From positions 8,866,001 through 8,930,000 of the forward strand of contig NZ_CP108464.1 of assembly GCF_036226405.1 (NCBI RefSeq): a DNA stretch of 64,000 nucleotides, written 5' to 3'. A program made the position numbers and the translations under genes. Position 1 is the stretch's first letter; each line of letters starts with the position of its first letter. The stretch is from Streptomyces sp. NBC_01260 (lineage in GTDB: Bacteria > Actinomycetota > Actinomycetes > Streptomycetales > Streptomycetaceae). The notes below the pieces were generated by a model. It did no database searches. It was not told where the DNA came from and worked only from the letters and a program-made list of their open reading frames with translations. This document shows, piece by piece, positions 9,997 through 32,646 of this stretch.

Positions 9997-11847
9997 CTAC
10001 GGCATCTGCGTCGAGCTCTCTCCCTGTGCGGGGAGGCCGGAGGCCAGTTCGAGGACGCACGTTCCGGAGGGCGGAACCTCGATCGTGTGGATGCCCGGTG
10101 TGAGGGTGAGAGCCGTGGCCTGCTGCAATCGGCCTCGGGCGTCATGGATCCGTGCACGGACCTGGCGGGGTGGTCCGGAGACGTCGAGGACCATGCGTGA
10201 GGCGGTGGAGGCGTTGATGAGGGAGTGGGAGCGCCAGGACTCGGTGCGAAGGGGCACGATCCTGTCGGTGTAGTTGGTGATGACCCGTTGGTCTCCGTGA
10301 GCGGCGGTGACCTGGGGGAAGAGTTCGTCCGGGCGGCCGGGTTCGTAGTGGCCGGAGGTGAGGACGGGAGCCAGTCGACGCCAGGTGGCGAGCCAGAACG
10401 CGAGGGTCTCGCGGTGGCTGGGGGAGAGCCGGCTGAGGCGGACGGAGATCTGCGGCACGGAGTGCAGGGCCCCGTGGAAGTGGCGGGCCAGGCTCTCCGG
10501 TGTTGCCTGCGGATCCCACATCACCATGTCGGAGTGGACTGCTCCGCAGGGTGCGAGCAGTGCGATGTCCAGCGTCCGGATGCGGTTGGCGACGGGATCG
10601 GCGGGGCAGTCGGTGGCGCGCAGTGCGTTGCCGAGTGCGGTCATGGCCGGCCCGATGTAGGGCTGGCGCAGCTCGATGACGAACTGGTCGCCGCGCAGGG
10701 CCCGCAGGGCGTCGCGGATATCGGCGAGCAGCGCGGCCATCGCCTCCCCGATGTCCGGAATGTATCCGGGGGCGGGCTGGTCGGGTGCGGGCACTGCGGC
10801 GTAGGCCATGGCCTCGTCGAGGAAGTCGATCTTCAGGCCGTCGAGTCCGTACGTGTCGACCAGGGTGCGGCAGGTGTCCACGATGTGTGCGCGCACTTCG
10901 CTGTGGCGGGGGTCGAGGACGAAGCAGTCGAGGTGCGGGACGTGGTGCGGCGCGTACGGTGCCCAGGCCTGGTGGGCGGAAGAGCGCTCTCCCAGGAGAA
11001 GCGGGGCGATCCAGGCGGTGTAGTGCAGTCCGGCACGCCGAACGGTACTGACGTGGGCGCGGAAGTCGGGGAACTTGAATGGGTCCGGCTGCCAGTCGCC
11101 GCAGCCCGCGTAGCCACGGCCGTTGCCGAGCAGCTGCCAGCCGTCGTCCAGGAACAACTGGCCGCAGCCGAGGGCGGCGGCGAGGGCGGCCTCCTCCTCG
11201 ACCTCGGCCGCGGTTACGTCCTGGGTGAAGGCATACCAGGTCGAGTAGACGGGCGTCCGGGCGAACTCCGGAACGGGCAGCGGCTCTCCGCCGGGCAGGC
11301 CGGCGAGCCACTGACGGAGCCTACGGAGGGCGGCAGCCATGGTGGTGCCCGGCGCGGAGATGCGGACTCGGCAGGTCTGCCCGGCGGTGAGGGAGAGGCG
11401 CAGCCACACGCCGAAGCGCTTGCGCTCCTCGGAGACACCGAAGCGAATCCAGCTCTTCTGGACGGTGCGGTTGGCGGCGAGGGCGAGCAGACTGCGACCG
11501 GCGGTGTCGTAGAGGCAGCCGACGGGGGCGGATCGTACGAGTGACAGGCCGCGCCATGCCGACCAGTCGACGGGCAGGGTGCGCTCCCAGCCGGCGTCGG
11601 GGTGCCAGAAGCCCACGGCGTCCCCCAGCGGGACGTCCAGGCGCAGGGTCACGGTGCCGTCCGCCGTCGCCGTGACGAGAGCCTCGGTCCCGGCGGCGTC
11701 GTCCTGCGACAGGGTCAGGGTGGCGCTGTCGGCGGGAGTACGCAGGCTGATGCGTGTGTCGCCCACATCGAGGGTGTTCGCGCCGTCTGCCCACTGGCCG
11801 GGGTCGAAGGCGGCCAGGTCGATGGAGTCGAGGGACGTGGTATCCAC
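9997..11847 (-). CDS. Clan GH-D glycosidase, probable alpha-galactosidase (GH36-like)
   Basis: The product has 616 residues, using the GTG at 11847 with AGAGAGG ten bases upstream. There is no signal peptide, so it is cytoplasmic. An N-terminal beta-sandwich (about residues 1-170) precedes a TIM barrel. Barrel landmarks are YSTWYAFTQDVTAAEVEEEA, LGCGQLFLDDGWQLLGNG, LHYTAWIAPLLLG, and YGLDGLKIDFLDE, where the Asp of KIDF fits the clan-D nucleophile. A later ALRATDCPADPVANR segment probably carries the acid/base. The C-terminus is a small beta domain. It is the last gene of a minus-strand set with a phosphodiesterase and a second GH36 enzyme. Its substrate may differ from the neighbour's, since the active-site loops are quite different. 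Confidence 0.75.
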   Translation of the reverse strand: MDTTSLDSIDLAAFDPGQWADGANTLDVGDTRISLRTPADSATLTLSQDDAAGTEALVTATADGTVTLRLDVPLGDAVGFWHPDAGWERTLPVDWSAWRGLSLVRSAPVGCLYDTAGRSLLALAANRTVQKSWIRFGVSEERKRFGVWLRLSLTAGQTCRVRISAPGTTMAAALRRLRQWLAGLPGGEPLPVPEFARTPVYSTWYAFTQDVTAAEVEEEAALAAALGCGQLFLDDGWQLLGNGRGYAGCGDWQPDPFKFPDFRAHVSTVRRAGLHYTAWIAPLLLGERSSAHQAWAPYAPHHVPHLDCFVLDPRHSEVRAHIVDTCRTLVDTYGLDGLKIDFLDEAMAYAAVPAPDQPAPGYIPDIGEAMAALLADIRDALRALRGDQFVIELRQPYIGPAMTALGNALRATDCPADPVANRIRTLDIALLAPCGAVHSDMVMWDPQATPESLARHFHGALHSVPQISVRLSRLSPSHRETLAFWLATWRRLAPVLTSGHYEPGRPDELFPQVTAAHGDQRVITNYTDRIVPLRTESWRSHSLINASTASRMVLDVSGPPRQVRARIHDARGRLQQATALTLTPGIHTIEVPPSGTCVLELASGLPAQGESSTQMP

Positions 11848-11972
11848 GGAGGGAACCTCTCTGCGGGACGCGAGTGGGGCGTCGTTGCGGTTGGCTGCCG
11901 CGCCTCGGGGACGCCGGCCGACGGCTTCCTGCCGGCCGGTGGTTTCGCTCCGGCCGGTGGATTCCTGGCGGC

Positions 11973-12833
11973 TCAGGCGGACTGGGGCGTGAGGGAGTGG
12001 AAGGGCTGCCCGTCGAGCGTCCAGTGCAGGTCGGGCGTGATACCCAGGGCGGCGTAGACGTGGGCGGCGACATCGGCGTGGCGGAGGCTGTCCGGTGGGG
12101 TGGTGGAGTCGATGCCGGGGCCGTTCGCAGCGATCCAGGCGGTGCTCTCCAGTGTGCTGCGACCGCCGTGGCCGCCTTCGTCGCGGTGGCCGTGGTCGGT
12201 CACCACGATGACGGTCCACTCCTCGGACCCGGCGTCGGGACGCTCACGTATGGCAGTGAGCAGCTGTCCGAGTTGCCGGTCGGCGGTCTCGATCGCGTTT
12301 CGGTACTCGGCTCCGCAGGCGAGGAAGTGGGCGGTCTCGTCAACAGCGCCGAGGTAGACGAAGGAGGCGTCGAGGTCTTCGCCGGAGCTGAGAATTCTTG
12401 CGGCTTCGTCGGCCACGCTCTGGTCGCACGCGTCCCAGCCCTGCGGGGTGTCCTCGCGCGGAGCGATATAGGCGAGCCTGCTCGGGGCCGCGAAGACCGG
12501 GCCGCCCTGCCGGGCCAGGAACAGGGGTTCCCAACCGCCGGCCGCGAAGGTCCGCTTCCCGCGCTCGGCGGCCAGCCGCGTGGTGAAGTCGGGGAACACC
12601 CCGAGCCGGTTCCCGGAGAAGTTGTTGCCCCAGACTCCGTGCTTGGCCACGCCGACACCGGTGACGATCGTGGTCCAGCAGGGGCCCGACATGGTCGGTG
12701 TGTCGTCGTCGATGTGGACGGGCGCGAAGAAGCCGGCGTTCGCGACTTCGTCGAGGTTGGGCGTTTCCAGCATCGGCAGCAGATCGAGGCGGACGCCGTC
12801 GATTCCGACGACCAGGACGCGGGGTGTGGGCAT
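11973..12833 (-). CDS. Alkaline-phosphatase-superfamily phosphodiesterase
   Basis: The product has 286 residues from ATG 12833; the Shine-Dalgarno is weak. Motifs of the type I phosphodiesterase/nucleotide pyrophosphatase family are clear. VVGIDGVRLDLLPMLETPNL holds the first metal-binding Asp. HIDDDTPTMSGPCWTTIVTG holds the catalytic Thr/Ser region. VYLGAVDETAHFLACG holds the DxxxH metal site, and VIVVTDHGHRDEGGHGGRST holds the TDHG and final His. It probably hydrolyses a phosphodiester or phosphomonoester in the cytoplasm, as there is no signal peptide. It lies between two clan-D alpha-galactosidases, which hints that the imported glycan carries a phosphate group or that a sugar phosphate is released during breakdown. 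Confidence 0.85.
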   Translation of the reverse strand: MPTPRVLVVGIDGVRLDLLPMLETPNLDEVANAGFFAPVHIDDDTPTMSGPCWTTIVTGVGVAKHGVWGNNFSGNRLGVFPDFTTRLAAERGKRTFAAGGWEPLFLARQGGPVFAAPSRLAYIAPREDTPQGWDACDQSVADEAARILSSGEDLDASFVYLGAVDETAHFLACGAEYRNAIETADRQLGQLLTAIRERPDAGSEEWTVIVVTDHGHRDEGGHGGRSTLESTAWIAANGPGIDSTTPPDSLRHADVAAHVYAALGITPDLHWTLDGQPFHSLTPQSA

Positions 12834-12892
12834 GTTCTCGGTTCTTTCGTGGGGCGGGCGGAAAAAGGGGACGGGGGATGCTCTTACCGGTG

Positions 12893-15010
12893 TCAGACGG
12901 TGCGGCGCAGCCGGATCAGGCGGCTGGCGTAGTCGCCGACGGGCAGCCGCAGGTCGATGCCCCGGCGGGTCAGGGCGGCGCCGCTGTGGGTGATGCCCTC
13001 GTCGATGTCGAGGTAGTGGGCCGCGGGGTCCAGGGCCGGCAGGGGGAGACCGGGGGCCGGGTGGCCGAAGCGGGTTGCGGGGCGCCAGGCGAGGACGGCG
13101 TGTTCGGTGTCGTCCTGGGACGCGTAATGCACGGCTGTCAGTCCGGCGGGGCCGTGGAGGCGGTACTGGCGGCCGTGCTGGACCAGGGGGCGGATCTCCT
13201 TGTAGCGGATGACGAGCGCGGCGGCCTCTTCGAGCTCCTCCTCGGACCAGGCGGTGAGATCCCCGCCGAGGCCGAGTGCTCCGGCCATGGCGACATGGAA
13301 GCGGAACCGGAGAGGCGTGGTGCGGCCGGTGGTGACATTGGGGCTGTCGGTCACCCAGGCCGCCATGGCCTGGGCGGGGAAGAGCTGGCTGAAGCCGTGC
13401 TGGATGTTGATCCGGTCGACGGGATCGGTGTTGTCGGAGGTCCAGACCTGGTCGGTGCGGGCGAGGATGCCGAGGTCGGCCCGTCCGCCGCCGCCCGCGC
13501 AGGCCTCGATGCGAAGGCCGGGGTGGTCGGCACGGAGGCGGTCCATGATCCGGTGGACGGCGCGGGTGTGGTCGATCCACAGCCGGTCGGGGTCCGGATG
13601 GCCGGCCCAACCGGCCTCGGTGACGACCCGGTTGGCATCCCACTTGAACCAGTCGACGTCGTGGTCGCGCACCAGCTGGTCCAGGGTCCGGTGGGCCCAG
13701 GCCTCGACTTCGGGGCGGGCGAAGTTCAGCATGAGCTGGTTGCGCAGCTCGGTCGCGTCCCGAGTCGCCGCATGGACGACCCAGTCGGGATGGGCACGGT
13801 AGAGGTCGCTGTCGCGGTTGACCATTTCCGGCTCCACCCACAGCCCGAACGCCATGCCCAGGCGGTGCACCTCGTCGGCCAGTGGACGCAGCCCGTCGGG
13901 GAACGCCTCGGGCCGGGGCGTCCAGTCGCCGAGACCCGCCCGGTCGCTGGTACGGCCGCCGAACCATCCGTCGTCCAGCACGAAGAGTTCGGCGCCCAGA
14001 CGTGCGGCCACCCGGGCCAGGCTCAGCTGGCCGGGCTGGTCGACGTCGAAGCCGGTGGCTTCCCATGAGTTGTAGACGACGGGCCGGTCCCGGTCGGGGG
14101 CGGGCAGGACACCGGTACGGATGTGGGCGTGCCAGGCGCGGCTGGCGGCGCCGAAGCCGTCGGGGGTGTAGAGGCCGGCGAAGACGGGTGTGTGCAGGCT
14201 CTGGCCGGGCTGGATGGTCCAGCTGAGTCCTTCGTGGCCGAAGCCGCCGGTCCAGGTGGTCCGGCCGACCGGGTCGCGGTGCACGGTGATGCGCCAACTT
14301 CCGCTCCAGGCCAGGGCGGTGCTCCAGACCTCGCCGTGCTCCTCGTCGGCGGTGCCGTCGTCGAGGGCGAGCCAGGGGCTGGCGTGGTGGCTGGTGAGGC
14401 CCCGGCGGCTGGTGAGCACGGTCTCGGCGACCGGGAGCCGGTCGCGCTGCAACTGGAACTCGCTGTTCCAGCCGCCCACGAGGTGGTTGAGCCGGTAGTC
14501 GGGCAGTGCTGGCAACGTCCAGGCGGCCGAGTCCAGCCGGTCGACGGTGATGGGGCCCGAGTCGTCGGCTCCGGTGTGGGTGAGTTCCACCCAGCGCTCG
14601 ATGACGTCACTGCCGGGACGGACGCGATAGCCCAGTTCGGCGGCCAACGGGTAGTGGCGGTCGGCAAGGTACAGGCGGAGTTCTCCGTCCCGGACCGTGT
14701 GGCCGGTGAAGGACCACTGGGCGCCGCGGGTGCCGTCGGCGAACCGCACCTGGAGGCCGGCCGGCCCGAACCGCGCACCGGTCTGCGGGGCCAATTCGTC
14801 CGGGGCGGGGTCTGTCTCGAAGCTGCTTGCGGCAGGTGAGGTGGCCGCGGGCAGTCCGCAGAGGGCGTCGGTGTCGAGCGGTTCCCCCCAGTGCAGATGC
14901 CGGGGGCTGCCGTCGGCGCCGATGCGTACGGCGTAGACGCTGTTCGGGGTCTGCAGGACCACCAGCCCGCGGGTGGGGTCGAAGGAAACGGATGAGGGTG
15001 TGGGAGGCAC
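12893..15010 (-). CDS. GH36 alpha-galactosidase
   Basis: The product has about 705 residues with the usual GH36 layout: N-terminal beta-supersandwich (1-320), TIM barrel (320-620) and C-terminal beta domain. Catalytic motifs are present: DWFKWDANR carries the nucleophile Asp, and WTSDNTDPVDRINIQHG carries the acid/base Asp. Other hallmarks are YNSWEATGFDVD, LFVLDDGWFGGRTSD, GLWVEPEMVNRDSDLY and EACAGGGGRADLGILARTDQ. GTG 15010 is preferred because GGGA lies 7 bases upstream; an in-frame TTG at 15052 would add 14 residues. It heads the minus-strand operon, and a candidate operator lies just upstream. The enzyme should remove terminal alpha-galactosyl residues from imported oligosaccharides. Confidence 0.9.
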   Translation of the reverse strand: MPPTPSSVSFDPTRGLVVLQTPNSVYAVRIGADGSPRHLHWGEPLDTDALCGLPAATSPAASSFETDPAPDELAPQTGARFGPAGLQVRFADGTRGAQWSFTGHTVRDGELRLYLADRHYPLAAELGYRVRPGSDVIERWVELTHTGADDSGPITVDRLDSAAWTLPALPDYRLNHLVGGWNSEFQLQRDRLPVAETVLTSRRGLTSHHASPWLALDDGTADEEHGEVWSTALAWSGSWRITVHRDPVGRTTWTGGFGHEGLSWTIQPGQSLHTPVFAGLYTPDGFGAASRAWHAHIRTGVLPAPDRDRPVVYNSWEATGFDVDQPGQLSLARVAARLGAELFVLDDGWFGGRTSDRAGLGDWTPRPEAFPDGLRPLADEVHRLGMAFGLWVEPEMVNRDSDLYRAHPDWVVHAATRDATELRNQLMLNFARPEVEAWAHRTLDQLVRDHDVDWFKWDANRVVTEAGWAGHPDPDRLWIDHTRAVHRIMDRLRADHPGLRIEACAGGGGRADLGILARTDQVWTSDNTDPVDRINIQHGFSQLFPAQAMAAWVTDSPNVTTGRTTPLRFRFHVAMAGALGLGGDLTAWSEEELEEAAALVIRYKEIRPLVQHGRQYRLHGPAGLTAVHYASQDDTEHAVLAWRPATRFGHPAPGLPLPALDPAAHYLDIDEGITHSGAALTRRGIDLRLPVGDYASRLIRLRRTV

Positions 15011-15056
15011 AGGTGATCCCGAGGGGTTCGAGCGTCGGTGAGGACCGGGCAAACGG

Positions 15057-15074
15057 AAACATCGAATGATGTTT
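15057..15074. promoter_or_regulatory. Candidate operator between the GH36 gene and the ROK regulator
   Basis: AAACATC (15057-15063) and GATGTTT (15068-15074) form a perfect 7-bp inverted repeat with a 4-base centre. It lies about 45 bases upstream of the preferred GH36 start and 90 bases before the divergent ROK gene, a good place for an operator controlling the minus-strand operon. The surrounding sequence (to about 15155) is unusually AT-rich for this genome, as promoters often are. Confidence 0.55.
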
Positions 15075-15164
15075 GGAGTGGCCGCAGTTGGGCCAGAGCG
15101 TAGGGCCGCTCGAACGAGAAAATCAATACTGGACGAAGTTATTTATTTATCGTAGGTTGCCGCC

Positions 15165-16322
15165 GTGTTTCCAAACCACTCGCGACCACTGGTGACGGCA
15201 CCGGCCGAAACCGCCATCCTCGCCCTGCTGTTGGCCGAAAGCCCGCTCAGCCGGGTGGAGCTGGCCCGCCGGACGGGCCTGTCCTCGACCGCTGTGACCA
15301 AGGCCGCGCGACCACTCCTCGACGACGGCTACCTGCACGAACTCCCCCCGGAGCGCACCGCTCCGGGGGCCGGACGTCCCGTGAACCCGCTGGCCGTCAC
15401 TCCCGACCGGGAGTTCGTCGTCGGTGTGAAGATCAGTGCCGACACCCTCTTCGGCGCGGTCTGCGACCTGCGGGCGCGGATGCGCACCACCGCCAGCCGG
15501 CCGCTGGGCGACCGCGACCCGGCCGCCGTATGTGCGCTACTGGCCGAACTCGTCTCCGAACTCCTCGACGTGAAACCCGAGTACCGGGCCCGCACCCGGC
15601 ACCTGGGCGTCGCGGTCTCCGGCGACGTGGACCGTTCCTGCGGACGTGTCCGCTACTCCGTGCTCCCCGATTGGCGCGATGTGCCACTGGCCGATAACCT
15701 CGCCGCGGCGACCGGCCTGACCGTCACCGTGGAGAACGACGTCAAGGCCATCACCGCCGCCGAGCACTGGTTCGGTGAGGGTATCGGTACCGAGTACTTC
15801 GCACTGGTCACCATCGGAGCGGGGATCGGCTCCGGGATCGTCATCAACGGTGAGCTGGTCGCCGGCGCGTACGGCGTGGCCGGAGAGATGGGGCACATCA
15901 GCATCGACCCGGCCGGGCCGCGGTGTCACTGCGGCCAGACCGGTTGTGTCGAGGCCGTCGCCTCCAGCGACGCCGTCCTCGCCGCCATCCGCCGCGCCAC
16001 CGACGACCCGGACCTGGACTTCGACGGTGCCGTTCAGCTCGCCCGTGGTGGAGACCCCGCCGCGCAGAGCGCCTTCGCGAGGGCCGGCCATGCCATCGGC
16101 GTCGGCATCGCCACCCTTGTGAACCTCATAGGTCCCGAGCGCGTCGTCGTCACGGGCGAGGGGCTCGACACCTACGACCTTTTCGGAATGCACATCAGGG
16201 ACGCCTACGAAGCGCACTGCTTCAAAGCAGCGGCGAAATGCCCGCTGACCCTGCGTCCGCTCCCCTGGGAGGAGTGGGCCCGCGGCGCCGCCGTCGTCGG
16301 CATCCAGGCTCTCTTCCCCTGA
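15165..16322 (+). CDS. ROK-family transcriptional regulator
   Basis: The product has 385 residues from GTG 15165; the ribosome site is weak. Residues about 15-60 are a winged helix (AILALLLAESPLSRVELARR followed by TGLSSTAVTKAARPLLDDGY). The rest is a ROK sugar-binding fold with the signature VTIGAGIGSGIVINGELVAG, then GEMGHISIDPAGPRCHCGQT and GCVEAV, giving the zinc-binding His/Cys cluster. The N-terminal DNA-binding domain makes it a regulator rather than a sugar kinase. It lies between, and is divergent from, the GH36 operon and is followed by the sugar ABC importer. The likely role is repression lifted by a sugar from the target glycan. Confidence 0.9.
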   Translation: MFPNHSRPLVTAPAETAILALLLAESPLSRVELARRTGLSSTAVTKAARPLLDDGYLHELPPERTAPGAGRPVNPLAVTPDREFVVGVKISADTLFGAVCDLRARMRTTASRPLGDRDPAAVCALLAELVSELLDVKPEYRARTRHLGVAVSGDVDRSCGRVRYSVLPDWRDVPLADNLAAATGLTVTVENDVKAITAAEHWFGEGIGTEYFALVTIGAGIGSGIVINGELVAGAYGVAGEMGHISIDPAGPRCHCGQTGCVEAVASSDAVLAAIRRATDDPDLDFDGAVQLARGGDPAAQSAFARAGHAIGVGIATLVNLIGPERVVVTGEGLDTYDLFGMHIRDAYEAHCFKAAAKCPLTLRPLPWEEWARGAAVVGIQALFP

Positions 16323-16466
16323 ACGAGCTTCACCACCCCGTTCGCCGGCCCGAGCTTCCGGCGCAACCGATGTCCAGCACCGTCTGCCAACTGTGAATAA
16401 CCGGACACCGGCTGCGCCGGACAACAACACCCGTACACCCAACCCTCTCAACCTGAAGGACGCGAA

Positions 16467-17741
16467 GTGAGCGCACGGAGCTCCAAGCTTAGTCGCAGAG
16501 GATTCCTCGGCGGATCCATCCTGTTCGTCGCCGGAGCGGCGGTCGGTTGCAGTACCGACCCGTCCAGCGGCGGCTCCTCCGGGGCGAAGACCACCCTGAA
16601 CGTCTGGTCCCACGCCTACGGCGAGGCCGGCACCCAGCAGGCCCTCACCCGTTACGCCACCGCGTTCACCAAGGCCAACCCGGACATCGCGGTCAAGGTC
16701 ACCTGGACCCCCGGCGACTACTCCAGCAAGCTCTACGCGACCCTTCTCACCGACTCCGCCCCGGACGTCTTCGAGATCGGCGACTTCAGCGAGAGCCTCG
16801 CCCGGCAGGGCCAGATAGCCCAGCTGGATGACATCTACGGCAGCGCCAAGTCCGACTTCAACCAGGGCGCCCGCGACATGGTGACCGTCGACGGCAAGCT
16901 CTACGGCGTCAAGACGCTCGACGACATCATGATGCTCTACTTCCGCAAGAGCGTGCTCTCCAAGGCCGGCATCACCCCGCCCGACAGCTTCGACGCGCTC
17001 GCCGACGCGGCCAAGGCCCTGAGCTCCAAGAAGACCAAGGGCCTGTTCGTCGGCCAGGACGGTCTGGGCGACAGCGCCATCCTCTCCGTGTTCTCCAACG
17101 GCGGCGACCTCGTCACCGCCGACGGCAAGGCGGGCTTCGGCTCCTCCCAGGCCGCCGAGGCCGTGGCCGGACTCAAGCGCCTTCACGACGACAAGTCCCT
17201 GCTGCTCGGCTTCACCACCGACTGGTGGGACCCCGCCGCCCTCACCCAGAACGCCGTCCCGATGCAGTGGGGCGGCCTCTGGTCGATGCCCGCCATCAAG
17301 ACCGCGCTCGGCGACGACTTCGGCGTCATGCCGTGGCCCGCCTTCAAGCCCGGCGGCAAGCCCGCGGTTCGCGTCGGCGGCTGGAGCACCTGCGTAAACG
17401 CCAAGGGCAAGAACGTGGAAGCGGCCAAGAAGTTCGTCCAGTGGCTCTGGATCAAGCAGACCGACCTCCAGACGGACTGGTCGCAGAGCTACGGCCTCCA
17501 CATCCCGCCGCGCACGTCCGTCGCCGCCGCCGCCGACAAGCTCGCCCAGGGACCCGCCAAGGAGACCGTCGAGCTGGCCACCAAGTACGGCAGGAACAAC
17601 CCCAGCACCTGGAACAGCGCTGTGAGCTCCCTCTTCACCGCGGCCGCGGTGAAGATCGTCGGCGGGAAGGGCGACGCGGAGAAGCTCCTGGCCGACGCGG
17701 CCAAGAAGGCCCAGGGCGAGATCGACAAGCAGCGCGCATGA
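16467..17741 (+). CDS. Sugar ABC transporter substrate-binding lipoprotein
   Basis: The product has 424 residues from GTG 16467, with GAAGGA a few bases upstream. The N-terminus carries a Tat-type signal (SSKLSRRGFLGGSILFVAGA) ending in a lipobox-like AVGC, so it is exported folded and anchored by a lipid on the Cys near residue 30. The mature part is a family 1 extracellular solute-binding protein (LNVWSHAYGEAGTQQALTRY; VTWTPGDYSSKLYATLLTDS; WSMPAIKTALGDDFGVMPWP). It should capture oligosaccharides released outside the cell and hand them to the two permeases encoded directly downstream. The stop overlaps the next start (ATGA). Confidence 0.93.
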   Translation: MSARSSKLSRRGFLGGSILFVAGAAVGCSTDPSSGGSSGAKTTLNVWSHAYGEAGTQQALTRYATAFTKANPDIAVKVTWTPGDYSSKLYATLLTDSAPDVFEIGDFSESLARQGQIAQLDDIYGSAKSDFNQGARDMVTVDGKLYGVKTLDDIMMLYFRKSVLSKAGITPPDSFDALADAAKALSSKKTKGLFVGQDGLGDSAILSVFSNGGDLVTADGKAGFGSSQAAEAVAGLKRLHDDKSLLLGFTTDWWDPAALTQNAVPMQWGGLWSMPAIKTALGDDFGVMPWPAFKPGGKPAVRVGGWSTCVNAKGKNVEAAKKFVQWLWIKQTDLQTDWSQSYGLHIPPRTSVAAAADKLAQGPAKETVELATKYGRNNPSTWNSAVSSLFTAAAVKIVGGKGDAEKLLADAAKKAQGEIDKQRA

Positions 17742-18730
17742 TGAAGTCCGCACCTCCACCCACGCTTGACCACGAGCGTGTCGGGTGCCCCGCGGCTGAG
17801 CCGCGGGGCACCGCCCCCGTCCGCCGTTCCCGCCCGGACTGGCGTGCCTGGGGAGCGTTCGCACTGCTCGCCGGGCCCCTCCTGATCGGCCTGGTCCTCT
17901 TCAAGTACGTCGCCATCGGCTGGAGCTTCCTGCTCAGCCTCAGCGAGGCCCGTGGCAGCATCGCCCTGGGCCGCTGGGTCGGCCTGGACAACTACCAGGC
18001 GCTGCTCTCCGATGCGGTGTTCCGTAAGTCGCTCGGCCAGATCCTGCTGTTCACGGTCTTCATCGTGCCGGTGACGTTCGCCGCCTCGCTGGGACTGGCG
18101 CTGCTGGTGCACCGGATCCGGCGCGGCCGGGCCGTGCTGCGCACCGCCTTCCTGATCCCGGCCGCCGTCTCCTACGTCGCAGCCTCCCTGCTGTGGAAGA
18201 TGTCGCTGTTCAACGGGCTGCCGAGCGGCATCGCCAACACGATCGGCGGATGGTTCGGCATGGATGCCGTCCCATGGCTGCAGGCCACCTCGCCACCGCT
18301 GTACTGGGTCGTCCTCATCACCCTCCGCCTCTGGCTCCAGGTCGGCTTCTACATGGTGCTCTTCCTCGCCGGGCTCCAGGGCATCCCCAAGGAGATGTAC
18401 GAGGCCGCCGCCCTCGACGGCGCCACCGGCCTGCGCCTGCTGCGCAGGATCACCCTGCCGATGCTGCGCAACACCTCGGTGGCCGTCCTGATGCTGCAGT
18501 TCATCGCCGCCTTCCAGGCGTTCGACGAGTTCTACAACCTGTTCAACAGCGGGCTGTCCGGGTCCGCCGCGGCCCCGATCCGAACCCCTCTGGGCTACCT
18601 CTACGACACCGCGATGGGCTCCCAGAACTACGGCCTCGGATCGGCCGGAGCTTTCGTACTCACCGCCCTCATCATCGGTGTGACCCTGATCCAGGGCCGG
18701 CTCACCGGCTTCGGCAAGGGTGAGGAATGA
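17738..18730 (+). CDS. Sugar ABC transporter permease 1
   Basis: The product has 330 residues and six predicted membrane segments (for example FALLAGPLLIGLVLFKYVAI; VFIVPVTFAASLGLALLVHR). The MalF-type EAA loop YEAAALDGATGLRLLRRITL lies near residue 230 and contacts the ATPase. ATG 17738 overlaps the binding-protein stop; a second ATG follows at once. The first 30 residues are unusual: they are polar and encoded by a strong hairpin. No ATPase gene is in the cluster, so the transporter probably uses a shared MsiK-type ATPase, as is usual in Streptomyces. Confidence 0.9.
   Translation: MMKSAPPPTLDHERVGCPAAEPRGTAPVRRSRPDWRAWGAFALLAGPLLIGLVLFKYVAIGWSFLLSLSEARGSIALGRWVGLDNYQALLSDAVFRKSLGQILLFTVFIVPVTFAASLGLALLVHRIRRGRAVLRTAFLIPAAVSYVAASLLWKMSLFNGLPSGIANTIGGWFGMDAVPWLQATSPPLYWVVLITLRLWLQVGFYMVLFLAGLQGIPKEMYEAAALDGATGLRLLRRITLPMLRNTSVAVLMLQFIAAFQAFDEFYNLFNSGLSGSAAAPIRTPLGYLYDTAMGSQNYGLGSAGAFVLTALIIGVTLIQGRLTGFGKGEE
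17784..17812 (+). promoter_or_regulatory. Strong intragenic stem-loop after the binding-protein gene
   Basis: GGTGCCCCGCGGC (17784-17796) pairs perfectly with GCCGCGGGGCACC (17800-17812) around a 3-base loop. It lies 43 bases past the binding-protein stop, inside the first codons of permease 1. A 13-bp GC stem here would slow 3'-to-5' RNA decay and hinder read-through. Either effect would give more binding protein than permease. Confidence 0.55.
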
Positions 18731-19584: not shown

Positions 19585-19625
19585 GCTGCTGAAGACGTCG
19601 TCATCAGCGGCCTCCATGGCTGAGC
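19563..19625 (+). repeat. Imperfect duplication of the permease 2 3' end
   Basis: The 24 bases at 19563-19586, covering the last codons and stop of permease 2, recur at 19602-19625 with three mismatches. The second copy again has an in-frame TGA but no gene. It looks like a relic of a short duplication and has no clear function. Confidence 0.6.
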
Positions 19626-19710
19626 CGCACCTGACTCCGGACCACCGGTCCGGTCCGCATCACCTGAAGATCCAACCCCCACACCCACCCCACCCTTGGA
19701 GGGGACAATC

Positions 19711-21663
19711 ATGAGATCCGAAAGGTCGGCTCCCGCCGTCAGGAGATTCTTCTCCCGAATTCTGCCTGCCACGGCAGCCGCGGTCACCCTCGTTCTCGCG
19801 GGAACCACCGGCTCCGTCGCAGCGACCCCCACCGCCACCACCGCTCCCATGACCGGACCGCAGTTGGCAGCCTCCTGGACGGGGCCGCTGAGTACCCGCG
19901 GGCGGTACATCGTCGATGCCAACGGCAACCGCTTCAAGCTGAAGGCCGGCAACTGGGCCGGTGCCCAGGGCACCTGGGAGGGCAGCGGCGACGTCAACGA
20001 CCCCACGAACCACCAAGCGGACCAGATGTCGCACAACCTTCCGTTGGGCCTGGACCGCGCGCCGATGGCACAGATCATGGCCGACTTCCACGAGCTCGGG
20101 CTGAACAGCATCCGGCTGCCGTTCGCCAACGCGATGATGCGTGACACCACGGTCGTACCCGACTCCGCGGTCGCGGCCAACCCGCAGCTGAAGGGCAAGA
20201 CCCCGCTGCAGGTGTTCGACGCGGTGGTGGCGGCCCTGACCGCCGACGGGTTCGCGGTCATCCTCAACAACCACACCACCTCCTACCGCTTCTGCTGCGG
20301 CCTGGACGGCAACGAGCGCTGGAACAGCGGCCAGTCCGCCCAGCAGTGGCAGGAGGACTGGCTCTTCCTGGTGAACCGCTACAAGGCGAACAAGCGTGTC
20401 GTTGGCGCGGACCTGCGTAACGAGATCCGCCGCGACACCCTGGACGACCCCAACTGGGGCCGGGGCGACGATCACGACGTGTACGCGGCCTTCGAGCTGG
20501 CGGGCACCCGCATCCTGCAGGCCGACCCCGACATGCTGGTCATCATGGAGGGCATCAACTGGTACGGCATCCCGCTGGACGGGCTGGACTACGGCAGGCC
20601 GATGCTGACGCCGGTCCGTCAGCTCTCGAATACCCTGATCACCTCGGGCAAGCTGGTCTACGCCGCGCACTTCTACGGCTACACCGGCCCGAACTACACG
20701 GGTGCCGAGAGCGGACCGGGGCACACCAACGACTGGCCCTACGAGGACTTCCCGCTCGACAAGCTGAAGCAACTGGTCCACGACGAGGCCCTGTTCGTCA
20801 CCCAGTCCGGCCAGCACTTCACCGCCCCCGTCTGGATCAGTGAGTTCGGTGCCGGCGGCCGGGGGTCGCAGGACACCAAGGAGAAGACCTGGTTCGGCAA
20901 CTTCACCGACATCCTGGTCGAGAACGACACCGACTTCGCCATCTGGCCGCTGGTCGGATGGACCGGTCCCAACGGTGCGCCGCAGGATACCTGGGCCCTG
21001 ATCTCCTACGACACCGCCGGCAAGCGGCAGAGCCTCAGCGACTCCGGCGACTGGCGGACCGCCGACTGGAACAAGCTGGTCAACGGCTCGGGGAAGACCG
21101 GCCCGGTGGCACAGGTCAACCACTGGAACATGCTCGACCTCGACTTCCGCGACCACAACGTCTCCTCCCGCATGCTCTCCCAGAGCGACTGGAGCCCCGG
21201 CTACCGCAAGGGCAACTGCCCCGACAGCCAGCGTCTGACCGGCCTCGGCCGCAGCGACAAGCGCGGCCTGTGCACCGACGCGAACCAGCCCGCCAAGGGA
21301 ACCGGTGGCTGGGTGGCCGTCCACGACGAGCGGTACGTCACCCACGGTGACTGGGCGGCGGGCTACAACAAGCTCCAGTGCCCCGACAACACCTTCGCCG
21401 TCGGCTACAGCGTCAACGGCAACTCCATGGCCGGCCTGCTCTGCGCGCCGTCCGCCGCACCGCTGCCGCTCAACGGCCGCAACGTCTGGTTCGACCAGGG
21501 CGACAACCGCCCGGCCACGGGCGGCTCGATCGAAAGCGACTGGGCTCCCGGCTACTACAAGGGTCAGTGCGCCGACAACGAGTACATCGCCGGCGTCGCC
21601 TTCACCTGGAAGTGGAACCACAACGGTGTTCCCGACACACTGCTCTGCCGTCCGCTGAGCTGA
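19711..21663 (+). CDS. Secreted GH5 glycoside hydrolase with C-terminal repeat module
   Basis: The product has 650 residues from ATG 19711, with GGAGGGG 6 bases upstream. A Sec signal peptide (residues 1-38, ending near SVAAT) exports it. Residues about 50-470 are a GH5 TIM barrel: FHELGLNSIRLPFANAMM; VGADLRNEIRRD with the acid/base Glu; AAHFYGYTGPNY; VWISEFGAGGRG with the nucleophile Glu. Residues about 500-650 hold three repeats of about 40-45 residues patterned DWxxGYxKxxCxDxxxxxG...LC, each with two Cys. This may be a carbohydrate-binding module. It is probably the extracellular endo-enzyme that opens the polymer before import. The subfamily and linkage cleaved cannot be told from sequence alone. 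Confidence 0.85.
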   Translation: MRSERSAPAVRRFFSRILPATAAAVTLVLAGTTGSVAATPTATTAPMTGPQLAASWTGPLSTRGRYIVDANGNRFKLKAGNWAGAQGTWEGSGDVNDPTNHQADQMSHNLPLGLDRAPMAQIMADFHELGLNSIRLPFANAMMRDTTVVPDSAVAANPQLKGKTPLQVFDAVVAALTADGFAVILNNHTTSYRFCCGLDGNERWNSGQSAQQWQEDWLFLVNRYKANKRVVGADLRNEIRRDTLDDPNWGRGDDHDVYAAFELAGTRILQADPDMLVIMEGINWYGIPLDGLDYGRPMLTPVRQLSNTLITSGKLVYAAHFYGYTGPNYTGAESGPGHTNDWPYEDFPLDKLKQLVHDEALFVTQSGQHFTAPVWISEFGAGGRGSQDTKEKTWFGNFTDILVENDTDFAIWPLVGWTGPNGAPQDTWALISYDTAGKRQSLSDSGDWRTADWNKLVNGSGKTGPVAQVNHWNMLDLDFRDHNVSSRMLSQSDWSPGYRKGNCPDSQRLTGLGRSDKRGLCTDANQPAKGTGGWVAVHDERYVTHGDWAAGYNKLQCPDNTFAVGYSVNGNSMAGLLCAPSAAPLPLNGRNVWFDQGDNRPATGGSIESDWAPGYYKGQCADNEYIAGVAFTWKWNHNGVPDTLLCRPLS

Positions 21664-21720
21664 CCCACCCCCTCAGTTCCACCAGTTCGACCAGTTCCAT
21701 CATCGAGGAGACCACGGCCA

Positions 21721-23474
21721 TGCCCCGACTCGAGGTTGCCGCAGACGGCTTCCGTCTCGACGACCGACCGCTGCGGATCATTTCCGGCGGGCTGCACTAC
21801 TTCCGGATCCATCCGGAACAGTGGGCCGACCGCCTTCGCAAGGCGCGCCTGATGGGACTGAACACGATCGAGACCTACGTCCCATGGAATCTCCACTCGC
21901 CCCATCCGGGTGAGTTCCGGCTGGACGCAGGTCTCGATCTTCCCCGGTTCCTCGATCTGGCCGCCGCCGAAGGCCTGCACGTACTGCTCCGCCCCGGCCC
22001 GTACATCTGCGCCGAGTGGGAGGGTGGCGGCCTTCCCTCCTGGCTGCTCGCCGACGAGGACATCGAACTGCGCAGCCGCGACCCGCGTTACCTGAAGGCG
22101 GTGGACGACTACCTCGCTGCCCTGCTGCCGCCCGTCCTTCCCTACCTCTCCACACATGGCGGCCCGATCCTCGCCGTGCAGCTGGAGAACGAATACGGCG
22201 CGTACGGCGACGACTCCGGCTACCTGGAGGATCTGGCGGAGCTGCTGCACCGGCACGGAGTCGACGTACCGCTGTTCACCTGCGACCAGCCCTCCGACCT
22301 GGAGCGAGGCGGCCTCGACGGTGTCCTGCGCACCGTCAATCTCGGCAGCCGGGTGGACGCCGGGCTCGCCGCACTGCGCACACACCAGCCGTCCGGGCCG
22401 CTGATGTGCAGCGAGTTCTGGATCGGCTGGTTCGACCGCTGGGGCGGAATCCATACCACCCGCAGCGCGGCCGACGCCGCCGCGGACCTCGACCGGCTGC
22501 TCGCGGCCGGCGCCTCGGTCAACATCTACATGTTCCACGGCGGCACCAACTTCGGTTTCACCAACGGCGCCAACGACAAGGGCACGTACCGTCCCACCGC
22601 CACGTCGTACGACTACGACGCGCCTCTGGACGAGGCCGGCGATCCCGGCCCCAAGTACGCCGCCTTCCGCGAGGTCATCGCCCGGTACGCGCCCGTGCCC
22701 GAGGAGCCGCTACCCGCCCCCGCGCCCAAGCTTTCCGCGACCACCGCCGAACTCACCGCATGCGCCGGACTCCTGGACCAGTGCGAGCGGCTCGGCAGCA
22801 CGGTGCACACCGACCGCCCGCAGACCATGGAACAGCTCGGCCAGTCCTTCGGGTTCATCCTGTACGAGACGACGCTCCCGGCGGCAGGGCCGGCCATCCT
22901 CCGCATCGCCCAGGTGGGCGATCGCGCCCAGGTCTTCGTCGACGGCCAGCCGGTCGGCGTCCTGGAACGCGAGAACCATGAGCACGCCCTCACCTTCCAC
23001 ACCCCCCGGCACGGAGCACACTTGGCCGTGCTGGTGGAGAACCAGGGCAGGGTCAACTACGGGCAGGGCATGCACGACCGCAAGGGACTGCTCGGCGAGG
23101 TCACCGTCAACGCACAGCCCCTGGACGCCTGGTACAGCCGGCCGCTGCCTCTCGACGATCTGGGCCGGCTGTCCTTCACCGGGTCCGAGCCCGCCTCGCC
23201 CCCGGTCGGCCCCACGTTCCACCGCGGACACCTGGACATCGAGCAGCCGGCCGACGGCTGGATCGCCCTGGACGGCTGGACCAAGGGCCACGTCTGGATC
23301 AACGGCTTCGCACTCGGCCGGTACTGGTCCCGAGGACCGCAGACCACGCTCTACGTCCCCGCACCGATCCTGAACGCCGGCCGGAACGAGATCACGGTGC
23401 TCGAACTGCACGGCGCCACCACCCGCACGGTGGAGCTACGGGGAACTCCCGATCTCGGCCTCCTCGAGGACTGA
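21721..23474 (+). CDS. GH35 beta-galactosidase
   Basis: The product has 584 residues. ATG 21721 has GAGGAG about 10 bases upstream. There is no signal peptide, so it acts in the cytoplasm. GH35 hallmarks are RIISGGLHYFRIHPEQWADR, LNTIETYVPWNLHSPHPGEF, RPGPYICAEWEGGGLPSWLL, VQLENEYGAYGDD (acid/base Glu), MCSEFWIGWFDRWGG (nucleophile Glu) and YMFHGGTNFGFTNGA. Two C-terminal jelly-roll domains follow (about 370-584), ending in WTKGHVWINGFALGRYW. It should release terminal beta-galactose from imported fragments. It lies 57 bases after the GH5 gene on the same strand. Confidence 0.93.
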
Positions 23475-23525
23475 CGTCCGAGACACCGGACAACGGGCCT
23501 CACCCAGGCAGGCCGACCGGCCACG

Positions 23526-23542
23526 CCGACCGGACCGGTCGG
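23526..23542. promoter_or_regulatory. Palindrome between the GH35 and GH38 genes
   Basis: CCGACCGG and CCGGTCGG flank a single A (23526-23542) about 50 bases past the GH35 stop. The 211-base gap before the alpha-mannosidase gene otherwise holds no gene. The palindrome may be a weak terminator or an intercistronic RNA hairpin, and suggests that the mannosidase has its own promoter or reduced read-through. Confidence 0.4.
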
Positions 23543-23685
23543 AACGACTGGACATCCGCCTTCGGAAGGCCCCGCCCGGACCCGCACGAGGAGCCAGGAA
23601 CTCGGTCCGCGCCGGGCTCGAACCGCTCCTGACGGTCGGCCGGCCGCGACAAGATCACCGTCCTCCACCGACGACAGAGGAATCC

Positions 23686-26600
23686 ATGCACAGCAAGCGA
23701 CGCCTCACCGAGCAGCGGCTCGACCGGGTGCTGAACCAGCGCATCCGGCCCGCGGCCCACGCCCGTACCGTCCCGGTCGAGATCGCGATCTGGAGCGTGC
23801 CGGGCGAGCCGGTCCCCGTGGCCGACGGCCTGGCCGCACCGTACGAACCCGTGGCGCTCGGGCACCGGTGGGGGCCGGCCTGGTCCACCAGCTGGTTCAG
23901 GATCAGCGGCAGGGTTCCGCAGGAGTGGGCCGGCCTGCGGGTCGAGGCGGTCATCGACCTCGGCTTCAACGTCACCGGCGCGGGCTTCTCCACCGAGGGC
24001 CTGGTCTACCGGGCGGACGGCAGCGTGGTGAAGGCCCTCAACCCCCGCAACGCCTATATCCCGGTCGCCGACCCGGCGGTCGGCGGCGAGGAGTTCACCT
24101 ACTACGTCGAGGCTGCCGCCAACCCCAACCTGAACGACGACCACGTCCCGTCCCGGACCGGGGACCGCCCCTCCTGGATCACGGGAGCCGGCTCCAGCAG
24201 CGCGCCCCTGTACCAGCTGCTCCGACTGGACCTGGCGGTCTTCGACGCACAGGTGTGGGAACTCGCCCAGGACCTGGACGTCCTCGGGGGCCTCATGCAC
24301 GAGCTGCCCGAGGCCGACCCACGCCGCTGGCAGCTCCTGAACACCATCGAGCAGGCCCTGGATGGAATCGACCTGCAGGACATCGCCGGCAGTGCCACCA
24401 CCGCCCGCGAGGTGCTGCGCCCGGCGTTCGCCGCCCCCGCGGCCGCCAGCGCCCACCGCATGTCCGCCGTCGGACACGCCCACATCGACACCGCCTGGCT
24501 GTGGCCGCTGCGCGAGACCGTCCGCAAGGTCGCCAGGACGCTCTCCAACGTCACCCATCTCATGGACGAACACCCGGGCTTCCTCTTCGCCATGTCCCAG
24601 GCCCAGCAACTGGCCTGGCTCAAGGAGCACCGCCCCGAGGTCTACACCCGGGTCCAGGAGAAGGCGGACAAGGGGCAGTTCCTGCCGGTCGGTAGCCTGT
24701 GGGTGGAACCCGACACCAACATCACCGGCGGCGAGTCCCTCGCTCGGCAGCTGATCCATGGGAAGCGCTTCTACCTCGACGAGTTCGGCGTCGAGACCGA
24801 GGAGATGTGGCTGCCCGACACCTTCGGGTACAACGCGGCCATGCCGCAGCTGATGAAACTGGCGGGAATCCGCTGGTTCCTCACCCAGAAGATCTCCTGG
24901 AACACCACCAACAAGTTCCCGCACCATACCTTCTGGTGGGAAGGCATCGACGGCACCAGGATCTTCAGCCACTTCCCGCCGGTCGACACCTACAACGCCG
25001 AGATCACCGGCGCCGAACTCGCCCATGCCGTCGGCAACTTCCAGGACAAGGAGGCAGCCAACAGCTCACTGCTCCCGTTCGGCTACGGAGACGGCGGCGG
25101 CGGCCCCACCCGGGAGATGCTGGCACGGGCGGAGCGTCTCGCCGACCTGGAGGGCTCGGCCAGGGTCGTCATCGAGAGCCCCGCGGACTTCTTCGAGCGG
25201 GCACACGCCGAATACCCCGACGCACCGGTGTGGCAGGGGGAGCTGTACCTGGAGTTCCACCGCGGCACACTGACCAGCCAGCTGAGGACCAAGCAGGGCA
25301 ACCGTCGCAGCGAGCACCTGCTGCGAGAGGCCGAGCTGTGGTCGGCGACCGCCACCTCGCGCACCGGACTCGCGTACCCCTACCAGGCCCTGGACCGACT
25401 CTGGAAGACGGTCCTGCTGCACCAGTTCCACGACATCCTGCCCGGCTCCTCCATCGCCTGGGTCCACCGGGAGGCGGAGCAGACCTACGCCGCCGTCACC
25501 GCCGAGCTGCGCGCGATCACGGACGCCGCCCAGCGCGCCCTGGCCGGCGAAGGCGATCTGCCCGTGGTCTTCAACGCCGCTCCGTTCGCCCGCGACGGTG
25601 TCCCCGCCCTCGGCGCCACGCTCCGCACCCGGCCGCAGGGCCGGCCCGTCGCCCCGGTCCCCCGCGGGGACGGTTTCGCGCTGGACAACGGCCTGGTACG
25701 CGTCCGGGTCGATGCCCAGGGCCTGGTGACCTCGGCGTACGACATCGCGGACGGGCGCGAAGCGCTGGCCCCCGGTGCCGTCGCCAACCTCCTCCAGCTG
25801 CACCAGGACTTCCCCAACGAGTACGACGCCTGGGACATCGACGCCTTCTACCGCAACACCGTTCACAACCTCCTCGACGCCGAATCGGTCGAGGCACAGG
25901 AAGACGGTGTCCGGATCGTGCGGACCTTCGGTGACTCCCGCATCGAACAGCTGGTCTCCCTGTCCGAAGGCTCCCGACGCCTGGACGTCGACACCGAGAT
26001 CGACTGGCACGAGAAGGAGAAGCTCCTCAAGGCGGCCTTCCCGCTCGATGTGCGGGCCGACCACTCCAGCGCGGAGATCCCCTTCGGACACGTCCGGCGC
26101 CCCACCCACACCAACACCAGCTGGGACGCCGCCAAGTTCGAGATCTGCGCCCACCGCTTCCTGCACCTCGGCGAACGGGGGTGGGGCGCGGCCGTGGTCA
26201 ATGACTCGACCTACGGGCACGAGGTCACCCGGGACGTCCGCGCGGACGGCGGCACCACCACGACCGTCCGGCTCTCCCTGCTCCGCGCTCCCCGCTTCCC
26301 CGACCCGGACGCCGACCAGGGCCACCACCATCTGCGATACGGGTTCGTCATCGGCGCGGACATCGCCGACGCCGTCCGCGAGGGCTACGTGTTCAACCAG
26401 CCCGAGCGTAGCCTCCTCGGCTCGGCCGAGGTCGAGCCGCTCGTCACCGTGGACAACGAGACCGTGGTCATCGAGGTGGTCAAACTCGCCGATGACCGCT
26501 CCGGCGACATCGTCGTACGTCTCTACGAGGCATGCGGGGGACGCGCCCGAACCGTTCTGACCGCCGGATTCCCGCTGGCCTCCGCGGTCGAGACCGATCT

Positions 26601-26727
26601 GCTGGAGCGTGAACTCGACCCCTGCCAGAACACGGACGCCGTACAGACGGACGGCCGAGGAGTGCACCTGGCACTGCGCCCGTTCCAGATCCTCACTCTC
26701 CGGCTGAGGCCCCGGAAGAGTGACTGA
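23686..26727 (+). CDS. GH38 alpha-mannosidase
   Basis: The product has 1013 residues, full length for the bacterial GH38 group, and lacks a signal peptide. ATG 23686 follows GAGGAATCC. After an N-terminal region of about 250 residues comes the catalytic domain: [20 protein letters not shown] gives zinc-binding His and Asp, and [20 protein letters not shown] gives the nucleophile Asp. [35 protein letters not shown] and [20 protein letters not shown] follow. A large C-terminal beta domain completes it. It removes alpha-mannosyl residues and, with the galactosidases, implies a mixed galactose/mannose glycan. The adjacent HAD gene is probably co-transcribed. Confidence 0.93.
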   Translation: [1013 protein letters not shown]

Positions 26728-26811
26728 CCGACGCTCTCCGGCAAGGGAACTCCGGAACCACCGACCTCACGAGTGATCAGCCAAGCCATGACCGAAGAAG
26801 GTAGGACCGCT

Positions 26812-27483
26812 GTGCCCGTACCCCCCGCCGCCGTCCTGTTCGACATGGACGGCACGCTGGTCGACACCGAGCGTCTCTGGCTCCGGACCACGGCCGAACT
26901 CGCCGCCGATCTCGGCCACACCCTCACCGAGGAGGACCTGCCCGAGGTGCTCGGCCGCGCTGTCGGTCACACCGCCGCCCACCTGTGCCGTATCACCCGG
27001 ACCAGCCTCACCCCGGACGCCTTGGCCGAGATCCTCAGTGACACGTTCAGCAGCAAGGTCGCCGCTGAGGTCGTCCCCAGGCCCGGCGCACTGGCGCTGC
27101 TCGCCGAGCTGAGCGAGGCGGCCGTGCCCACCGCGCTGGTCTCGGCCTCACCCCGCCGCGTGGTGGACCTGGTCCTCGGCAGCCTCGGCGCTCACTGGTT
27201 CACCGTCACGCTTGCCGCCGAGGACACCGAGCGCACCAAGCCCGACCCCGCCCCCTACCTGGCCGCCGCCGACCGACTCGGGTTGGACCCTGCGGCCTGC
27301 GTGGCCGTCGAGGACTCTCCGACCGGGGTCGCCTCCGCGCACGCGGCGGGCTGCTCGGTGCTGGCCGTTCCCTCCACCGTGCCGATCGCCGAGGCCGACC
27401 GGATCACCTTGCTGGACAGCCTCGAACAGGCCGACCTGGCGTTGCTGTCCACACTGACCGTGGCGACGACACCGACCGCCTGA
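26812..27483 (+). CDS. HAD-superfamily sugar phosphatase or phosphomutase-like protein
   Basis: The product has 223 residues from GTG 26812, chosen because GGTAGGA lies 5 bases upstream; an ATG at 26788 has no ribosome site. HAD motifs are complete: motif I AVLFDMDGTLVDTERLW, motif II VSASP, motif III with the Lys of ERTKPDPAPYL, and motif IV VAVEDSPTGVASAHAAGC. The helical cap after motif I places it with the beta-phosphoglucomutase/2-deoxyglucose-6-phosphatase subgroup. It closes the carbohydrate cluster and may act on a hexose phosphate from mannose or galactose breakdown. Without the mutase-specific residues confirmed, phosphatase is the safer guess. Confidence 0.85.
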   Translation: MPVPPAAVLFDMDGTLVDTERLWLRTTAELAADLGHTLTEEDLPEVLGRAVGHTAAHLCRITRTSLTPDALAEILSDTFSSKVAAEVVPRPGALALLAELSEAAVPTALVSASPRRVVDLVLGSLGAHWFTVTLAAEDTERTKPDPAPYLAAADRLGLDPAACVAVEDSPTGVASAHAAGCSVLAVPSTVPIAEADRITLLDSLEQADLALLSTLTVATTPTA

Positions 27484-27491
27484 ATCCGTAC

Positions 27492-27522
27492 GCGACCGGT
27501 CAGAGGTGTCGTGTCCGGTCGC
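27492..27522. terminator. Stem-loop at the end of the carbohydrate cluster
   Basis: GCGACCGG (27492-27499) pairs perfectly with CCGGTCGC (27515-27522) across a 15-base loop, 8 bases past the HAD stop codon. It is well placed as the terminator of the GH5-GH35-GH38-HAD transcript. Confidence 0.55.
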
Positions 27523-31697: not shown

Positions 31698-31970
31698 GCG
31701 TGAGGTTGGCTGTGGCGGTAGGACGAGGGCAGGGGGTGAGGCCACCGGCAAGGTCCGGGGGTGATCTCCAAGACGGTCTCCCGGGTGCAGTCGCTCCAGG
31801 GCCTTTTCGGCGACCTCGAGTTGGACGGTGAGCTGAGAGATCTGAGTGCGGCGCATGTCGGGCAGGTCACGTCCCGCCGCTTCGCGTATCTCGATCCACT
31901 CCAGGAACTGGCGCATACTCACTCCCGCCCGTTCGTACCGGTCCCAGCGGCCGGGCCGGTGGCGGATCAC
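31689..31970 (-). pseudogene. Coiled-coil protein associated with IS5-type elements, partial
   Basis: The minus strand encodes SMRQFLEWIEIREAAGRDLP then MRRTQISQLTVQLEVAEKAL ERL, a short helical, Glu-rich domain. The following residues are Pro-rich and out of character. A similar N-terminal design occurs at 54574-55088, again next to an IS5-type transposase. The C-terminal winged helix expected from that relative is absent here. Function unknown. Confidence 0.4.
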
Positions 31971-31984
31971 GCCAGGCCATCGTC

Positions 31985-32618: not shown

Positions 32619-32646
32619 CTGACAACCTCGCGTAATCGTGAGTCGC

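Follow-up and report, generated by a model that had tools for sequence, protein, structure and literature searches.

A probable ROK-linked sugar utilization cluster of Streptomyces sp. NBC_01260 carrying an accessory pair of phosphodiesterase-like and phosphatase genes

Why should an apparently cytoplasmic phosphodiesterase be encoded within an alpha-galactosidase operon? The question is raised by a gene cluster of Streptomyces sp. NBC_01260 at positions 9,997-27,483 of a 64,000-nucleotide stretch (the window; 8,866,001-8,930,000 of contig NZ_CP108464.1). Pfam and NCBIfam searches identified genes for a glycoside hydrolase (GH) of family 36 and a GH36-like protein (GH36a and GH36b), a phosphodiesterase-like protein of NPP fold (PDE), a ROK-family regulator, a CUT1-type importer, GH5, GH35 and GH38 enzymes, and a HAD phosphatase. 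The genes form two divergent operons, GH36a, PDE, and GH36b leftward and ROK, a solute-binding protein (SBP), two permeases (P1 and P2), GH5, GH35, GH38, and HAD rightward. All enzymes named in a first-pass annotation of this DNA were recovered at their place with a Pfam match; the HAD gene, which its title did not name, belongs to the cluster as well. We consider it probable (about 0.6) that the cluster is a ROK-controlled catabolic unit, in which a glycan is trimmed outside the cell and the oligosaccharide is imported and stripped by exo-glycosidases together with PDE and HAD.

Conservation of the cluster was studied in 56 PDE-anchored loci from named genomes, with flanks of up to 10 kb. The arrangement GH35-GH5-P2-P1-SBP-ROK facing GH36a was present in 13 of them, and PDE was annotated behind GH36a in 12 of these 13 (L088 has a PDE-like fragment only). 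Partial versions were found at L042, L085, and L086, and GH38 and HAD lie just past the core in many loci. Since other Streptomyces and members of another genus show the same gene order, the gene set is not a product of chance. Among 29 distinct clusters, tallied by eye after merging records of the same genome (L036=G075, L083=G143, L043=G459, L051=G208=G417, L088=G214=G397), an intergenic 29-bp box was found in 29, GH5 in 28 (missing solely in G379), GH35 in 27 (missing in G289, unresolved in L085), PDE in 20, GH38 in 18 (counted at the boxed locus only), and HAD in 15; the presence of GH36b varies. G407, where the contig ends, was omitted from the tally; it has ROK, GH36a, and the box but lacks a PDE gene adjoining GH36a. 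PDE, HAD, GH38, and GH36b are accessory, as the core often occurs without them. It had been proposed that both halves form one unit, an idea that a neighborhood conserved with one half only would contradict; instead, both halves and their common box are conserved. The enzyme families match the alpha-galactose, beta-galactose, and alpha-mannose of the proposed branched glycan.

The box lies between GH36a and ROK. In an alignment of this gap from 18 loci, 17 showed the sequence AAATCAATACTGGACGAAGTTATTTATTT unchanged or with a single mismatch and L124 showed it with five, while the surrounding sequence was mostly poorly alignable. All 29 tallied clusters carry it with 0-2 mismatches. It is single-copy in its own genome (9.28 Mb, three contigs; three mismatches allowed) and absent from 20 shuffles of the window, and in 2.27 Mb of fetched sequence all copies with up to nine mismatches fall in these loci. 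A gene-independent scan of 394 genomes of the family detected the box at 15 sites in 14 genomes; all 15 neighborhoods were inspected, and the site separates GH36a from ROK in 14 of them and PDE from GH5 in the remaining one. Of 394 genomes drawn across the class, two carried it, both of the genus of the window. S. gardneri, S. tanashiensis, and G298 each have the box at a further locus, apart from the ROK gene, where GH5 and PDE are encoded; HAD is present in two of these loci. In S. gardneri and S. tanashiensis the core and its box are at L161 and L162, and the second box (L042, L086) separates HAD-GH5 from GH36a-PDE or from PDE. In G298 the core is at L163 and the boxed PDE-GH5 pair at L123, next to a CUT2-type importer and a Melibiase_2 (GH27)-type alpha-galactosidase. 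Because boxed PDE loci occur apart from ROK, PDE would be expected to be governed in trans, together with the galactosidase unit, and the ROK protein is the simplest candidate for the regulator. A ROK gene and a conserved site common to divergent operons, two features to be expected of a ROK-controlled sugar unit, are both present. In G295 (L124, L164), two clusters have the box, and a third ROK gene adjoins a degenerate copy of it.

PDE has 286 residues and matches PF01663 with 77.7 bits (cut-off 23). In an alignment of homologs, D12, D165, H169, D213, H214, and H222 are invariant and lie in metal-site-like motifs. Ser49 is likewise invariant and aligns with a Thr of Xac NPP and ENPP7. The Thr at this position is the nucleophile of NPP enzymes, and with Ser49 PDE lacks this mark of NPPs proper. 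Among solved structures, nucleotide pyrophosphatases/phosphodiesterases are closest to it in sequence. Unlike these (Xac NPP, ENPP6/ENPP7), it is compact and has no signal-like start and Ser instead of Thr; the stretch preceding GxHG is apparently lacking. In a tree of 74 PDEs (matches shorter than 230 residues were dropped; L085, L087, L088, and L089 were skipped) the window protein belongs to a clade of 20 members with support of 98/92. Within seven genes, 18 members of this clade have GH36a or GH5 and two have galK-galT; the clade is galactose-linked. In two loci of genus g14 (L168, L171), where PDE is missing, the gene directly after GH36a encodes a PF04185 phosphoesterase whose start is signal-like. 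A second, unrelated phosphoesterase thus occupies the slot of PDE, in two cases only. We take the plant phospholipase NPC4 to be a PF04185 member.

The HAD gene tracks PDE. It was found in 15 of 20 PDE-containing clusters and in none of the nine without PDE (Fisher p 2e-4; the species are related, making the p-value only a guide). L085 was scored positive for both although both genes are broken in the assembly; without it the count is 14 of 19. PDE-HAD fusions amount to eight among the best 120 of 814 PDE homolog matches. A sister type of locus (L095-L107), whose gene families were checked on one copy each, combines a DeoR/LacI-like regulator, SBP, two permeases, and a D-2-hydroxyacid dehydrogenase with PDE or, in nine of 13 loci, a PDE-HAD fusion. 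A PL8 lyase is often encoded as well, and genes for SIS-domain proteins and a class II aldolase are found in some cases; this type probably serves a separate substrate. In S. bungoensis, HAD (56%) and PDE (63%) homologs flank a PhnSTUV-like importer and a GntR regulator (NCBIfam matches below cut-off). The cluster of strain A2-31 has no HAD; the closest HAD homolog in that strain (73%) lies in an operon that resembles the one of S. bungoensis in gene order. A PDE paralog (39%) in the genome of NBC_01260 itself lies at a 2-aminoethylphosphonate importer locus with a PhnX-like HAD and a TIGR03364 oxidoreductase (L110, G000:C1:5405500-5425490). To judge from gene content, the common theme would be an importer with a pair converting diester to monoester to phosphate. 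The presence of PDE had been read as pointing to a phosphate-bearing glycan; the hint of a phosphodiester is reinforced by the HAD partner, whereas its placement on the glycan itself did not gain support.

The enzymes might instead act on UDP-galactose and galactose-1-phosphate as a safety valve of the Leloir pathway under heavy galactose release, the glycan being free of phosphate. The solved NPP relatives of PDE, the clade members adjoining galK-galT, and the assignment of HAD to a sugar-phosphatase group are in line with this. However, Xac NPP is longer than PDE by about 100 residues, and the DHG-GxHG stretch seems to be missing from PDE (the last aligned segment scores 1.9 bits, which is not significant by itself). 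PDE-HAD pairs are moreover encoded at loci that have no galactose genes, beside a PhnSTUV-like importer or a 2-hydroxyacid dehydrogenase and PL8. We regard a UDP-galactose valve as unlikely.

The GH5 protein is closest to endo-beta-1,4-glucanases, not mannanases. It shares the barrel fold and an alignable catalytic region with Acidothermus E1 and the Xanthomonas major endoglucanase (presumably both of subfamily GH5_1), but identity over the structural alignment is 22-26% and the window protein adds a C-terminal region of about 190 residues (window 21091-21660). The latter has no Pfam match and carries repeated DWxxGYxKxxC-like motifs. In the NBC_01260 genome and 101 genomes of the genus it was matched at GH5 places only, apart from a partial hit in G069 (L131). 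An endoglycoceramidase role was tentatively set aside: Rhodococcus EGCase II ranked 47th in Foldseek and was not among the 50 VIA rows.

GH5 with an alpha-galactosidase is the usual set for plant galactomannan, so an ordinary galactomannan or galactoglucomannan cluster with PDE and HAD as incidental passengers has to be weighed. The lack of PDE in about a third of the clusters (9/29) agrees with passengers. Against it stand the relationship of GH5 to glucanases, the lack of any beta-mannosidase family in the scanned proteins of the window, the presence of GH35 and GH38, the tracking of PDE by HAD, and the box found with PDE in separate loci; this explanation appears even less likely than a UDP-galactose valve. 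That two unrelated operons merely share a promoter region, as their divergence and the separate occurrence of GH5 and PDE families might suggest, is highly improbable, given that the box is kept in 29/29 clusters, which have genes from each half (in three clusters spread over two loci), and that it accompanies GH5-PDE pairs elsewhere.

The best reading, deduced from the genes and their context, remains a unit for uptake and exo-degradation of an oligosaccharide with alpha-galactose, beta-galactose, and alpha-mannose, PDE and then HAD stripping a phosphodiester. GH5, predicted to be secreted from its start, would trim an external glycan. SBP and the two permeases, served by an ATPase encoded elsewhere, would bring in a galactose-rich oligosaccharide, from which the putatively cytoplasmic GH38, GH35, and GH36a/b would take off alpha-mannose, beta-galactose, and alpha-galactose. 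If the imported compound carries a phosphodiester, PDE could open it, after which HAD could remove the phosphate left behind. The ROK protein would repress both halves from the 29-bp box between them until relieved by an imported sugar. No ABC ATPase was found among the proteins of the cluster; in Streptomyces, a single ATPase commonly serves several CUT1 importers.

Several observations weigh against this reading. PDE is absent from nine of 29 clusters (CB01881, G083, G098, G295, G289, G355, G379, G367, G415) and HAD from five of 20 PDE-containing ones (L037, L051, L061, G038, G298); phosphate handling is thus not essential to the pathway. PDEs of 59-75% identity were found in 34 Kitasatospora-type loci with no cluster gene adjacent and with neighbors that look housekeeping-like by eye. 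The PDE family is therefore not dedicated to glycans; the claim for the window clade is not weakened, since the 34 proteins fall in other clades. The box is weakly palindromic (8/14 pairs), its binding by ROK is deduced from position, and G295 has two degenerate copies with five and six mismatches. Of 20 GH5 neighborhoods, 16 hold no other cluster gene. With GH5 mostly alone and nearest to endo-beta-1,4-glucanases, the proposal that this enzyme opens the glycan outside the cell gained no support. Overall, the first-pass annotation was partly supported: largely right on one unit, plausible on phosphate, and unproven on substrate.

GH36b (Table 1) is barely a Melibiase by Pfam score (29.3 bits, cut-off 27), matches a solved alpha-galactosidase relative with E 6.6e-9, and keeps the KxD and DCPAD motifs. 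D341 is invariant among its relatives and D413 and D417 nearly so; the catalytic aspartate is presumably among them. As the N- and C-terminal GH36 domains (PF16875, PF16874) gave no match at E 0.001, it was labeled GH36-like. The closest PDB match of GH36a is 6jhp (E 6.8e-118), and PDB relatives of SBP include oligosaccharide and maltose binders. HAD has HxpB as best NCBIfam match (E 5.8e-28, below the family cut-off) and 2-deoxyglucose-6-phosphate phosphatase (1te2) as best PDB match. Frames and starts were taken from an open reading frame listing and a purpose-made codon-usage caller; signal-like and Tat/lipobox-like starts were judged by eye, without a predictor.

Table 1. Features of the cluster, in window coordinates.
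Feature	Position	Strand	Evidence and remarks
GH36b, divergent GH36-like hydrolase, clan GH-D	9997..11847	-	start GTG 11847; no signal-like start; Melibiase E 5.5e-7
PDE, compact phosphodiesterase-like, alkaline-phosphatase superfamily	11973..12833	-	no signal-like start; PF01663 E 1.7e-21
GH36a, canonical alpha-galactosidase	12893..~15010	-	start uncertain, 14,962-15,052; Pfam E 1.1e-111, with 36N and 36C domains
AT-rich box, 29 bp, AAATCAATACTGGACGAAGTTATTTATTT	15120..15148	no strand	proposed ROK operator common to both halves
ROK-family regulator (HTH + ROK)	15165..16322	+	start 15165 or 15192; ROK E 1.6e-50, HTH_24
SBP, CUT1-type solute-binding protein	16467..17741	+	PF01547; Tat/lipobox-like start
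ABC permease P1	17741..18730	+	PF00528; ATG 17738 or 17741
ABC permease P2	18727..19584	+	PF00528
GH5, endoglucanase-like barrel with ~190-aa C-terminal region	19711..21663	+	PF00150 E 8.4e-25; signal-like start
GH35 beta-galactosidase	21720..23474	+	Pfam E 2.2e-110; no signal-like start
GH38 alpha-mannosidase	23686..26727	+	E 2.8e-93, with further GH38-associated domains; no signal-like start
HAD phosphatase, beta-PGM/HxpB sugar-phosphatase group	26788..27483	+	HAD_2 E 4.2e-31; no signal-like start

Some neighboring genes were also recorded. GH35 and GH38 are separated by an alpha-amylase-family GH13 gene in S. atratus (L132:11146-12825) and S. gardneri (L161:13979-15625), so alpha-glucose may occur in the glycan; no such gene is present in the window. 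Look-alike secreted proteins of about 416-450 residues are encoded near the core in L111, L164, and L180 (two g14 genomes, one Streptomyces), the L180 copy having no Pfam match. A DUF5054 protein adjoins GH38 in G098 (L111:9276-11444). To the right of the window cluster are transposase-like genes at 31867-32625 (weak Pfam matches) and 59980-61220 (a pair, IS3-like by eye).

By family assignment, GH38, GH35, and GH36 would together dismantle alpha-mannose on beta-galactose on alpha-galactose. Galactomannan side chains with alpha-mannose on beta-galactose are attached to an alpha-1,6-galactan core in cryptococcal GXMGal, and the authors of that work find basidiomycete inositolphosphoceramides to closely resemble the side chain (PMC12493134). 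A mushroom fucomannogalactan has an alpha-1,6-galactan backbone and mannose (PMC10441114), and NPC4, with its phosphoesterase domain, hydrolyzes the inositolphosphoceramide lipid class (PMC9837106). Inositolphosphoceramides would supply the phosphodiester; the match concerns the sugars and does not show that such compounds are used. Possible substrates, as yet unproven, are fungal galactans or the headgroups of inositolphosphoceramides. A bacterial pathway dedicated to fungal galactose/mannose glycans that carry phosphodiesters, for example these headgroups or related alpha-galactans, with PDE-HAD as a portable two-step phosphate-stripping cassette recruited by various importers and glycosidases, is conceivable though rather unlikely. 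Wall teichoic acid with galactosylglycerol phosphate was tentatively set aside, the literature search giving no match; phosphoethanolamine cellulose, which has no alpha-galactose, was set aside too. No described equivalent of the enzyme set was found in the literature searched, in which subscription journals were thinly covered.

The closest known systems are Gram-positive CAZyme clusters that are controlled by a ROK or LacI regulator and have a CUT1 importer, for example the oligosaccharide loci of bifidobacteria. The window cluster resembles them in its SBP, two permeases, apparently cytoplasmic exo-glycosidases, and dedicated regulator, and differs in the PDE-HAD pair, the GH36 plus GH36-like proteins, the mix of GH5, GH35, and GH38, and a 29-bp box nearly unchanged across two genera. 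Phosphonate/2-aminoethylphosphonate importer operons are similar in that the S. bungoensis relatives of PDE and HAD sit with a PhnSTUV-like importer, but the window cluster has a CUT1-type sugar importer and glycosidases instead. We therefore view the cluster as a ROK-linked sugar unit of known type, to which an accessory, putatively phosphate-stripping pair has been added. It represents a defined candidate regulon with one box and one ROK gene, and it contains an unassigned phosphodiesterase-phosphatase pair found again alongside several importers. If this pair does strip imported glycans of phosphate, phosphate-decorated glycans would be a soil nutrient class with a gene signature, and a GH5 with an unclassified C-terminal region would gain a candidate substrate.

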